Made by a program: the position numbers and the translations under genes. A stretch of DNA of 6,305 nucleotides from an uncultured Paraglaciecola sp. GTDB lineage: Bacteria > Pseudomonadota > Gammaproteobacteria > Enterobacterales > Alteromonadaceae. The stretch is taken from positions 1 through 6,305 of the forward strand of contig CAJQKX010000800.1 in assembly GCA_905479025.1 (NCBI GenBank), written 5' to 3'. The notes beneath the pieces are model-generated. The model was not told the DNA's origin. It saw only the letters and a program-made list of their open reading frames with translations, and did no database searches. This document shows, in pieces, positions 1,558-4,855 of the stretch (within the stretch, counting starts at the first letter, position 1; every line of letters begins with the position of its first letter).

Positions 1558-1603
1558 AAAAAAAAACCCACAAAGACTCCAGGACACGGAAAATCTTTGC
1601 GGG
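1558..1603 (-). terminator. Intrinsic leader terminator ahead of nrtA
   Basis: Read on the minus strand, CCCGCAAAGA (1603-1594) pairs with TCTTTGTGGG (1576-1567) in a ten-pair stem with one G-U pair. The loop is 17 bases, and nine T residues follow at once (1566-1558). It lies 25 bases before the nrtA start codon, inside the leader rather than after a gene, so it should act as an attenuator. Its 5' arm overlaps the 3' arm of the upstream hexaloop hairpin by two bases. Confidence 0.88.
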
Positions 1604-1646
1604 CTGCATTGCCTATTTGTAACAACACTACGTCGTATAATTACAA
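1602..1646 (-). promoter_or_regulatory. Tandem-hairpin ANTAR (NasT) recognition element
   Basis: Two hairpins lie three bases apart directly before the terminator. P1 (1646-1617) has arms TTGTAATTATAC and GTGTTGTTACAA, giving 11 pairs (two G-U) with one U-U mismatch around the hexaloop GACGTA. P2 (1613-1602) is GGC-AATGCA-GCC: a three-pair stem with a six-base loop carrying A at position 1 and G at position 4. Known ANTAR target RNAs are paired stem-loops with hexaloops conserved as A1 and G4. P2 matches fully; P1 keeps G4 but has G at position 1. P2 shares bases 1602-1603 with the terminator stem, so P2 and the full terminator cannot both form. NasT, encoded nearby, is the expected ligand. 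Confidence 0.72.
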
Positions 1647-1739
1647 TTTTTTGTTTAAAGCATTATGACACTTATTGTCTTCTAATTATTGAGGACAATT
1701 ATCATTGTTATAAGTAGTAGGTCACTCATTCACTGTTTA

Positions 1740-1754
1740 GCAGTAACAATGCCA
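1740..1754 (-). promoter_or_regulatory. Sigma-54 (-24/-12) promoter of nrtA
   Basis: The minus strand reads TTGGCATTGTTACTGCT, with GG (1753-1752) and GC (1741-1740) exactly ten bases apart, as RpoN promoters require. The -24 element TTGGCA is a good match; the -12 element is CTGC rather than the more usual TTGC. Transcription would begin near base 1728, giving a leader of about 195 bases. An IHF-like site and an NtrC box lie upstream in the expected order. Confidence 0.75.
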
Positions 1755-1772
1755 ACTATTATTTTTGTTTAA

Positions 1773-1785
1773 TTTCAATAACTTA
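1773..1785 (+). promoter_or_regulatory. IHF-like site between NtrC box and sigma-54 promoter of nrtA
   Basis: TTTCAATAACTTA differs at one position from the IHF consensus WATCAANNNNTTR. It is 11/13 identical to the site before nasT, in the same orientation and 33 bases from the -12 GC (32 at nasT). DNA bending here could bring NtrC to the promoter. One mismatch in AT-rich DNA is weak alone; the parallel with nasT supports it. Confidence 0.45.
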
Positions 1786-1839
1786 ATGAATACACATCAA
1801 TTTTATCACACAGCATTGTTGTCATAGGAGTGCATACCT

Positions 1840-1856
1840 TGCACTATCAAAGTGCC
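1840..1856 (-). promoter_or_regulatory. NtrC-binding site (enhancer) of nrtA
   Basis: The plus strand reads TGCAC-TATCAAA-GTGCC. This matches the NtrC dyad TGCAC-N7-GTGCA at nine of ten half-site bases. Its centre lies about 120 bases upstream of the predicted start of transcription, a normal enhancer distance. A further GTGCA at 1830-1834 forms a perfect six-base inverted repeat (AGTGCA/TGCACT, 1829-1845) that shares one half-site with the box. Confidence 0.75.
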
Positions 1857-3731: not shown

Positions 3732-3776
3732 GCTATCTTTCCGAGATGTAATAATGATCTTTCATAACTGTGCTTA

Positions 3777-3791
3777 GCAAGCCATAAGCCA
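3777..3791 (-). promoter_or_regulatory. Sigma-54 (-24/-12) promoter of nasTS
   Basis: The minus strand reads TTGGCTTATGGCTTGCT, with GG (3790-3789) and GC (3778-3777) exactly ten bases apart and a consensus TTGC -12 element. Transcription would start near 3765, leaving a leader of about 34 bases before the TTG start of nasT. No terminator is seen in this leader, so nasTS itself should not be attenuated. Confidence 0.75.
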
Positions 3792-3808
3792 AATTTAATG
3801 ACCATAGA

Positions 3809-3821
3809 TATCAATAAGTTA
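3809..3821 (+). promoter_or_regulatory. IHF site between NtrC box and nasTS promoter
   Basis: TATCAATAAGTTA fits the IHF consensus WATCAANNNNTTR at every defined position. It sits between the NtrC box and the -24/-12 promoter, where IHF commonly bends DNA at sigma-54 promoters. Its edge is 32 bases from the -12 GC. Confidence 0.6.
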
Positions 3822-3871
3822 ATAATAAAATTGCAAATAACTTGTTTATTTAAAGTCCAAATAAATGCAAG

Positions 3872-3888
3872 CGCACCAACTTAGTGCA
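3872..3888 (-). promoter_or_regulatory. NtrC-binding site (enhancer) of nasTS
   Basis: The minus strand reads TGCAC-TAAGTTG-GTGCG, nine of ten half-site bases of the NtrC dyad TGCAC-N7-GTGCA and very like classic glnA enhancers. The centre is about 115 bases upstream of the predicted transcription start. A third half-site, GTGCA at 3893-3897 on the plus strand, repeats nine bases further out. The box begins shortly after the stop of the upstream gene. Confidence 0.78.
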
Positions 3889-3904: not shown

Positions 3905-4447
3905 TTATGTCTCCCGCAGTTGTTTTATCAATTTTACAAGCCGCATTATTTTAATATTCGATAATTGGCGATAATCAAAATAAGGACAAACCACCAGTTT
4001 GTTATGGATATTTATCGAAAATTCGTGATCTAACCATGTCAATAAGTGGGGCAAAGTTAGTGATTTAGCATATGTCTTGCCCATAATGATGTGCACCACA
4101 TTGTTATTTTGCTGTTTAATATTATTAAGTTGTGGTGGTAAAAACAATAAACTCGTGTTTGACGAATTTTGTAATAAAACATGCTCACGAAAATCTTGCC
4201 AACTTTTAGCTCCTTGCAACGAAACAATGTTTTCAGCATTAAGCGCAAATAGCAGCTTGGCATATACGTTAAATACTTTTCGCCAACCGTTACCACAAGC
4301 CAAACCAATAGCATTGATTTCCCCTGTTGATAACGGCTTAATCCCGCCGTTACTTGAATATTCAGAAAACGTCGGGATATTGCCAATATACACATTGAAT
4401 TCAGCGTATTGATCGCCCAGTCCAGATAACGAGGCACTTATCGGCAT
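3905..4447 (-). CDS. Conserved-type protein of unknown function
   Basis: A 180-residue protein I cannot assign with certainty. It has no signal peptide or membrane segment and looks like a soluble cytoplasmic protein. Visible marks are GLACGNGWRKVFNVYAKLLF (48-67), a central glutamine/asparagine-rich patch (106-116), IIMGKTYAKSL (120-130) and a C-terminal VVCPYFDYRQLSNIKIM. It may belong to an uncharacterised family shared among Alteromonadales and Shewanella (DUF6942 is a guess from memory). Its ATG follows the stop codon of the DUF2750 gene with no gap (TAAATG) and no evident ribosome binding site of its own, which points to translational coupling. It ends shortly before the nasTS enhancer, with no terminator seen between. 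Open frames on the opposite strand and in another minus frame overlap it, but this frame is longest and fits the coupled start. Confidence 0.75.
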   Translation of the reverse strand: MPISASLSGLGDQYAEFNVYIGNIPTFSEYSSNGGIKPLSTGEINAIGLACGNGWRKVFNVYAKLLFALNAENIVSLQGAKSWQDFREHVLLQNSSNTSLLFLPPQLNNIKQQNNNVVHIIMGKTYAKSLTLPHLLTWLDHEFSINIHNKLVVCPYFDYRQLSNIKIMRLVKLIKQLRET

Positions 4448-4855
4448 TTAGCTAAGATCGTTTGCCGCAAGCCCTTTTAAATCTTCTTCAATACAACTGA
4501 TCATTTCTTCAGCCTCAAGCATAATACCTTCTTCATCGCCACTTAATGGAAAAACCAAGACTAAAGTATTGTTGTTTTTCATTCCCGGCAACCATGTGTC
4601 GATCCATTCCACAAAATCAATTTGTTTAGGCTGACAATTAGGAAACTCATCTTTTACCCAAGCCTCAGCAAACTCTTTGTGTGGCCAAATAGGTATACAG
4701 GCATCCTCATCAGCCTTGAGCATCACCCAACCACTTTCACCATACAATCCCCAAAGGTTTTGCATTTCGATCATCTGTGCCAATGCATATTCAAAGCGCA
4801 GCTCGGGTAACATTTTACTCAAAGCAAGAAACTTTTCCTGTGAAATTTTATTCAT
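4448..4855 (-). CDS. DUF2750 domain protein
   Basis: A 135-residue protein matching DUF2750, a family of unknown function. The features that suggest it are LWGLYGESGWVML (34-46), PIWPHKEFAEAW (55-66), EWIDTWLPGM (83-92) and VFPLSGDEEGIML (101-113), in the usual order and filling almost the whole length. The protein is acidic and tryptophan-rich, with no signal or membrane segment. AGGA is placed seven bases before the ATG. Its stop codon touches the start of the next gene, so the two are probably co-transcribed. No link to nitrate assimilation is visible beyond adjacency. The family name is from recall of these motifs; the coding call itself is firm. Confidence 0.85.
   Translation of the reverse strand: MNKISQEKFLALSKMLPELRFEYALAQMIEMQNLWGLYGESGWVMLKADEDACIPIWPHKEFAEAWVKDEFPNCQPKQIDFVEWIDTWLPGMKNNNTLVLVFPLSGDEEGIMLEAEEMISCIEEDLKGLAANDLS

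Follow-up and report, generated by a model that had tools for sequence, protein, structure and literature searches.

Leader RNAs read by ANTAR proteins are the closest described counterparts of the locus examined here. In the published ANTAR motif, two hexaloop hairpins (hereafter P1 and P2) both have loops with A in the first and G in the fourth position (A1/G4), and mutation of A1 or G4 in either loop was reported to lower eutP induction (PMC3369931). For the nasF leader, A1 and G4 of P1 are described as essential (PMC3369936). According to PMC8934654, an EutV dimer binds a single hexaloop at a time, and A1 is not specifically contacted. With regard to initiation, dual control by Ntr and NasR is stated for Klebsiella oxytoca (PMC5424462), and NtrC control of nasT has been reported in Paracoccus denitrificans (PMC5424462) and Pseudomonas stutzeri (PMC8443478). 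A first-pass annotation of the DNA studied here had proposed that nrtA is gated by NtrC/sigma-54 initiation and by NasT-type antitermination, and it rightly called this principle not new. The gate itself is a known, orderly textbook circuit (K. oxytoca nasF), and the departure of P1 from the loop code is the part that seems new.

Promoter elements of nrtA and nasT

The window, meaning the whole stretch of 6,305 nucleotides analyzed, is known as a contig only, and all genome-wide statements below concern its relatives (loci are given as L numbers and genomes as G numbers). By NrtA identity, the closest named relatives were uncultured Paraglaciecola genomes (L001, 94%; L002, 91%), and ntrC and rpoN, which were read in relatives, scored above cut-off in 13/13 related genomes searched. 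The minus strand carries, in order, nasT (3731-3114), a nasS-like gene (3096-1987), and nrtA (1533-130). The 205-aa NasT, which begins with TTG, is a receiver-ANTAR antiterminator (Pfam ANTAR 6e-19, Response_reg 1.4e-11) with relatives of solved structure in 1s8n, 6wsh (EutV), 4akk (nitrate regulatory protein), and 1qo0 (AmiR). It adjoins a 369-aa NMT1_2 protein (2.5e-75), as expected of a NasS-NasT system, and the latter is putatively named a NasS-like sensor because it follows nasT and shows no obvious signal peptide at its N-terminus. The controlled gene, nrtA, encodes a 467-aa ABC-transporter substrate-binding protein (NMT1_2 2.3e-98), for which the gene context suggests nitrate as the substrate. 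Two adjoining genes of unknown function, encoding DUF6942 and DUF2750, were observed 5' of nasT on the same strand (3905-4855).

The intergenic region before nrtA spans 453 nt. A dyad, GCACTTTGATAGTGC (1841..1855, minus strand), matches at 10/10 positions GCACY-N5-RGTGC, which we take to be the NtrC consensus, and would act as the distal enhancer site. Downstream of it lies a GG-N10-GC element, TGGCATTGTTACTGCT (1739..1754, minus strand), with 9/12 sigma-54 consensus positions, and sigma-54 spacing would place the nrtA transcription start near 1728. Among 5000 dinucleotide-shuffled versions of the gap, a sigma-54 site of at least 9/12 was found in 3.2%, a 10/10 dyad in 0.04%, and the two together at a spacing of 60-220 bp in 0/5000. 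Both elements named by the first-pass annotation were thus borne out, in the arrangement of an NtrC-type sigma-54 promoter with the enhancer dyad 5' of the GG-N10-GC element. We also noted a possible, weak proximal half-site, GCACT (1819..1833, minus strand), 22 bp from the first site. Sigma-70 promoters were considered between 1401 and 2100 and set aside, with two found against 2.8 expected.

We compared nine loci from Paraglaciecola, Aliiglaciecola, Catenovulum, and Planctobacterium. An NtrC site of 8-10/10 lies 98-100 bp 5' of the promoter in six of the nine (L001, L002, L003, L005, L006, and L038). L007 possesses its NtrC site at -79 and none near -100, and no such promoter-NtrC site pair was found in L004 and L008. 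Sites of 7-8/10 at -79 were recorded in L001, L002, L003, L007, and L038.

Between the NtrC site and the promoter, a match at 8/9 positions to what we assume to be the IHF consensus, TTTCAATAACTTA, was found at 1773..1785 on the plus strand. Taken alone, this site is at chance level, with scores of at least 8/9 in 27% of 2000 shuffled spacers. Its placement is constant: the window and each of the seven relatives compared (L001, L002, L003, L005, L006, L007, and L038) have it 18 nt 5' of the promoter, with scores of 7-9 of 9 that reach 9/9 in L003, L005, and L006. The IHF-like site proposed earlier is therefore present and keeps its offset in 7/7 relatives, but its match alone does not distinguish it from chance.

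The family survey drew on 196 genomes from the family to which G001 belongs, and NrtA was recognized at 1e-100 in 84 of them. Leaders were read in 83, after a fragment (G094) was dropped, and P2 was found in 82 (none was recognizable in G065); 80 of these are distinct, and two are duplicates. A sigma-54 element of at least 9/12 occurs within 450 nt of P2 in 62/82 family leaders, compared to 2.8% of shuffles, and no qualifying site was found within that distance in the other 20/82. The first gate is thus not universal in the family. Eight loci (L004, L008, L009, L010, L012, L017, L019, and L022) possess P2 and the terminator, with no sigma-54 site of even 8/12 within 450 nt; in them the second gate is seen with no sign of the first.

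The nasT gene was found to have a candidate promoter region of its own (3776..3887, minus strand), which the first-pass annotation had missed. It comprises an NtrC dyad, GCACTAAGTTGGTGC (3887-3873), a 9/9 IHF-like site (3821-3809), and a sigma-54 element, TGGCTTATGGCTTGCT (3791-3776), with a score of 9/12. The geometry of these parts is nearly equal to that at nrtA: in the window, L001, L002, and L006, the NtrC site lies 96-97 bp and the IHF-like site 17-18 nt 5' of the promoter. The spacing is looser in L038, and L005 shows the promoter only. Because nasT has its own NtrC-IHF-sigma-54 promoter, NtrC probably drives both the antiterminator nasT and its target nrtA, which probably makes the circuit an AND gate with a coherent feed-forward loop.

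Terminator, P2, and the two-step reading

An intrinsic terminator occupies 1558..1603 on the minus strand. Its core is formed by CCCGCAAAGA (1603-1594) pairing with TCTTTGTGGG (1576-1567) through ten pairs, one of them G-U, and is followed immediately by nine Ts (1566-1558), then by AGGAG and the nrtA ATG at 1533. The fold has an energy of -18.8 kcal/mol (z -5.3). Over 30 leaders, chosen by the author from 74, 91.4% of stem cells are paired compared to 70.7% when shuffled, with a covariation of 0.587 against 0.205 (0/500). The ten-pair terminator with its nine Ts, AGGAG, and ATG therefore stands as first described, by direct reading as well as by fold and covariation. It was noted that a simple terminator scan, which allowed loops of 3-8, did not list this terminator.

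Overlapping the 5' arm of the terminator is P2, GGC-AATGCA-GCC (1602..1613, minus strand), whose hexaloop AAUGCA at 1610-1605 has both A1 and G4. Bases 1602-1605 belong to both P2 and the full terminator. The 3' arm of P2 is built from bases at the outer end of the extended terminator 5' arm, and therefore the two structures compete. Folded alone, the 45 nt before the terminator (z -2.0) form exactly two hairpins, P1 and P2, and this fold makes up 59% of their ensemble. P2 carries A1/G4 in 78/80 distinct family leaders by a score that itself favors A1/G4 and with two leaders set by hand; it does so in 76/83 when P2 is chosen by stem energy alone and the loop letters are ignored.

The overlap bears on whether the terminator regulates nrtA at all. 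The terminator follows nasTS in the same orientation and might merely end read-through from these genes, in which case nrtA would be under sigma-54 and NtrC alone, with leaky termination. No minus-strand terminator was listed after nasS, which is a weak argument in favor of this idea because the scan also missed the nrtA terminator. Against it, the promoter lies 5' of the terminator, P2 overlaps the terminator arm in nearly all leaders, and the same P2-terminator arrangement precedes narK and nirB genes. We consider a purely nasTS-ending role to be highly improbable.

The best explanation is a two-step AND gate of NtrC/sigma-54 initiation and ANTAR antitermination, to which we assign a probability of roughly 0.86. 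As predicted from the sequence, phosphorylated NtrC would bind 1855-1841 under nitrogen limitation, IHF would bend the DNA, and sigma-54 polymerase would start near 1728. Without nitrate, NasS would hold NasT, and the leader would form the terminator (1603-1567 with nine Us), stopping transcription before nrtA. With nitrate present, NasS would release NasT, which would bind the P1-P2 region and stabilize P2; P2 would then occupy the outer end of the terminator's 5' arm, and the polymerase would read through into nrtA. Since nasT probably has an NtrC promoter of the same type, the whole would form a coherent feed-forward loop. The modules of the gate are conserved in close relatives. Counted against the AND gate are the 20/82 family leaders and the eight loci above with no qualifying sigma-54 site, the result that no Rfam match to the leader came near a threshold, and a window P1 without the A1 that is needed in eutP and nasF.

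Eight bases in the terminator loop, GTGTCCTG (1580..1587, minus strand), are unchanged in 11 distinct nrtA leaders (12 matches, one a duplicate, among 164 upstream sequences in which some loci appear twice). Besides the window, the carriers are L111, L112, L120, L126, L128, L129, L130, L136, L002, and L005; the string also stands in one narK leader, L196. This element is constant although the flanking stems covary, and no pairing partner common to the leaders was found for it. A genome repeat was ruled out, as the longer string CGTGTCCTG occurs in 1-25 copies per genome in nine genomes compared to 7-26 for the reversed control. The element is possibly a protein site or a site for a trans-acting RNA.

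Contrary to the first-pass annotation, which had expected an ANTAR covariance match over 1600-1730, Rfam gave no such match: the best hit on the leader was bglG-cis-reg at 20.3 bits against a gathering threshold of 80 (E 0.15), and none of the three whole-window Rfam matches lies inside the leader. Neither RF00625 (P11) nor RF03032 (narK RNA) matched the window. As a control, four related nrtA leaders were searched, and RF00625 was matched in three of them (L057 4558-4691, E 4e-6; L070 4757-4932, 0.005; L062 4823-4947, 0.5) and RF03032 in one (L016 4851-4927, E 0.43), all below gathering. As an ANTAR test, Rfam was therefore set aside, with no near-threshold window match and with only weak P11 and narK-RNA matches on related leaders. 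RF00625, named as a Pseudomonas sRNA, or RF03032 may include terminated ANTAR leaders, and our literature search for P11 with nitrate found no paper.

P1 and the loop code

The window P1, TTGTAATTATAC-GACGTA-GTGTTGTTACAA (1617..1646, minus strand), carries the hexaloop GACGUA at 1629-1634, with G at position 1, where A is expected, and G at position 4. The first-pass annotation had described paired hexaloop hairpins; P2 is canonical, but P1 is without A1, so that the pair is not canonical in the ANTAR sense, a departure from the loop code that went unremarked there. No A1/G4 hexaloop of at least four pairs and dG <= -2 was found in the 150 nt 5' of P2, where the same rule finds one in 1.65% of shuffles. 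The 42 nt 5' of P2, which contain P1, fold with a z of -3.5. In a small sample of six equal-length leaders, hand-picked by the author, the P1 stem covaries, with 90.9% of cells paired compared to 79.3% when shuffled (1/500) and at most 64% in slid controls.

Across the family, P1 was read with a strict rule (at least three contiguous pairs, dG <= 0), which misses forms with short apical stems, and with a relaxed rule that was added to capture them. An A1/G4 hexaloop P1 within 60 nt was found in 43/80 leaders under the strict rule, compared to 42/1600 shuffles, and in 43/80 under the relaxed rule, in a slightly different set, compared to 14/400 shuffles. The canonical P1 is thus far above chance and far from universal. 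G1/G4 hexaloops of the window type occur in 8/80 leaders under the relaxed rule (4/400 shuffles) and in 5/80 under the strict rule; by the relaxed rule, one further leader of the 80 has an A1/G4 pentaloop, and at P1 of 28/80 neither a G4 hexaloop nor an A1/G4 pentaloop is present. The P1 position forms equally stable hairpins whether or not the strict A1/G4 loop is there (mean z -2.66 with it and -2.68 in its absence), compared to -0.48 in a control region further 5'; the hairpin is thus retained even in leaders that depart from the loop code. Among the close relatives, the nrtA-leader P1 is A1/G4 in L005 and L006, an A1/G4 pentaloop in L007, G1 in L001, and U1 in L002 and L003, with none in L038. 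Of two culturable relatives, Paraglaciecola mesophila has a P1 that is not a hexaloop, and Aliiglaciecola lipolytica has an A1/G4 P1.

Outside the Alteromonadales (58 loci, placed by the author), a terminator and candidate were found in 38; P2 is canonical in 37/38, and P1 is canonical in 24/37 of the leaders with a canonical P2. In eight non-Alteromonadales loci (L036, L048, L049, L052, L057, L058, L066, and L070), the gap between canonical P1 and P2 was roughly 17-45 nt. In vitro, extension of the linker by 20 nt abolished EutV antitermination.

Further leaders were sought with a covariance model of P2 and the terminator built from the 30 leaders, with the window included, so that its own match is by construction. 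With 150 of 1437-2209 candidates scored per genome, each of 13 genomes gave at least one to five matches at E <= 0.1. At E <= 2.5e-5, 28 of the 34 matches listed were examined; three weaker ones in the eight genomes named next were left out. At this threshold, at least 11 further leaders were found in G001-G006, G161, and G197, before genes for a NarK-type transporter (three) or nirB (eight). The narK genes of L196 and L208 match NCBIfam TIGR00886 above cut-off, and the truncated nirB at L212 has nitrite reductase large subunit as its best match, below its cut-off; the remaining assignments were judged by N-terminus. In G197, the NarK-type transporter of L208 (171-3048), with its own P2-terminator leader, is placed immediately 3' of the nasS-like gene and 5' of nrtA. 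None of the 11 further leaders has an A1/G4 hexaloop P1 under the strict rule, in which rows L198 and L204 were not used. The relaxed rule recorded an A1/G4 hexaloop in L211 (G006, narK), A1/G4 pentaloops in L212 and L218, C1/G4 in L196, and none of these loops in seven. The departure of P1 is thus widespread in the regulon, yet not absolute.

We examined which regulator would read these leaders. Exactly one ANTAR protein scored above cut-off in 79/80 genomes searched, with none in G065, and therefore the leader has one candidate ANTAR regulator. In 11 genomes (G034, G043, G071, G081, G115, G117, G146, G166, G177, G185, and G203), the ANTAR domain lies in a frame of 428-488 residues that also holds a NIT domain, the NasR type; this is the only ANTAR protein in these genomes and replaces NasT, a regulator swap on a conserved leader. 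A complete reading of the NasR-type protein of L090, whose genome, G018, is not among the 80, showed NIT and ANTAR domains. P2 and the terminator are kept under both regulators. Canonical P1 was found in 42/66 verified NasT leaders compared to 1/11 NasR leaders (Fisher exact test, p 0.002, with descent ignored and three unverified leaders counted as NasT). The resulting 69 NasT leaders include G063, G174, and G193, which were unsearched for ANTAR proteins and none of which has a canonical P1. The swap would explain the loss of P1 at most partly, as 24/66 verified NasT leaders are also without a canonical P1.

NasT residues were mapped by the author through a phmmer alignment to EutV and the contacts listed in PMC8934654. 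By this mapping, NasT retains R155, K162, E173, the aromatic F177 (Tyr in EutV), R181, and M185, whose EutV counterparts are described there as holding G4 and the loop. N156 and Q160 stand in place of two lysines through which the second EutV chain contacts P2, and D186 and G188 replace Asn and Arg of the alpha7-alpha8 loop. A K or R at the N156 position was found in 36/37 genomes with canonical P1 and in 17/24 without. In 61 sequences, NasT residues are associated with P1 class (best at residue 151, p 1.5e-5), but the associations are confounded by descent and strongest at residues that are not EutV contacts; neither these nor the N156 counts were used as evidence. Since EutV is described as making no specific contact with A1 and as binding one hexaloop per dimer, its structure does not argue against a G1 loop.

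There are two accounts of the window P1 to weigh. G1 may be a tolerated purine substitution, with NasT reading both loops in the ordinary way. This is consistent with the recurrence of G1/G4 at P1 in 8/80 leaders and at P2 in L121 and L118, one of them from Catenovulum agarivorans, but less so with the U1 of close relatives L002 and L003 and the 28/80 leaders whose P1 has neither a G4 hexaloop nor an A1/G4 pentaloop. We hold such tolerance as a tentative possibility. Alternatively, NasT may need only the canonical P2 loop, with the P1 hairpin kept as structure (a spacer, a pause, or a low-specificity landing site) and its loop no longer read for A1/G4, which is compatible with the AND gate and would alter its second step. 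The contrast between P2 and P1 (78/80 against 43/80) at equal P1-position stability points this way, as do the 11 or more further leaders of eight window-like genomes, with zero (strict) or one (relaxed) A1/G4 hexaloop, and the EutV contacts as described. Against a P2-only requirement, the window P1 retains its hexaloop size, C-G closing pair, and G4; L212 and L218 (2/11 further leaders) and L007 retain A1 and G4 in a five-base loop; both bases of P1 are reported as needed in eutP and nasF (PMC3369931, PMC3369936); and NasR is reported to bind the single P2 hairpin at ~12 uM compared to ~1 uM for both (PMC7496416). We lowered our estimate for reliance on P2 alone, and raised that for a tolerated G1, because the relaxed rule found L211, L212, and L218 and because G1/G4 recurs; we now regard reliance on P2 alone as rather unlikely.

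Equally doubtful is the broader proposal that, in the window's clade, one canonical hexaloop (P2) carries the code and P1 is selected for fold and position and not for an A1/G4 hexaloop, across most nrtA, narK, and nirB leaders and under both NasT and NasR. If true, the clade would offer a natural experiment on the usual presence of two hairpins in ANTAR targets. The window P1 departs at a loop base that was considered indispensable in two model systems, and in nearly half of the family leaders the hairpin at the P1 position has no A1/G4 hexaloop. Most of the genomes nearest the window contain two or three clear target leaders beside a single ANTAR protein, and the clade could therefore test the need for two hexaloops, a point that the EutV structure left open. 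A model demanding two canonical loops would miss such leaders, which would change how ANTAR targets are searched for. Among the open-licence PMC papers listed by the literature searches, none was seen to describe loss of the P1 loop in leaders under NasT or NasR.

Comparison with described systems

The two-step gate read here has a close counterpart in Klebsiella oxytoca nasF, which is likewise described as combining Ntr activation in nitrogen limitation with nitrate antitermination at a leader terminator. It differs in its regulator, the one-component NIT-ANTAR protein NasR, and in the reported A1 and G4 of its P1 loop. The dual-hexaloop antiterminator of Enterococcus faecalis eutP, read by EutV, shares the two hairpins with P2 over the terminator; both eutP loops are reported as A1 and G4, whereas the window P1 has G1. 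In gene content, the window resembles the NasS-NasT system of Paracoccus denitrificans, alongside which that of Azotobacter vinelandii is named as the same kind. There, nasTS is described as adjoining its target, nitrate frees NasT to bind the leader RNA, and an NtrC site is present at nasT (PMC5424462). The source calls an NtrC site at P. denitrificans nasA itself as yet unidentified, and in this respect the window differs, with one such site at nasT and another at nrtA.
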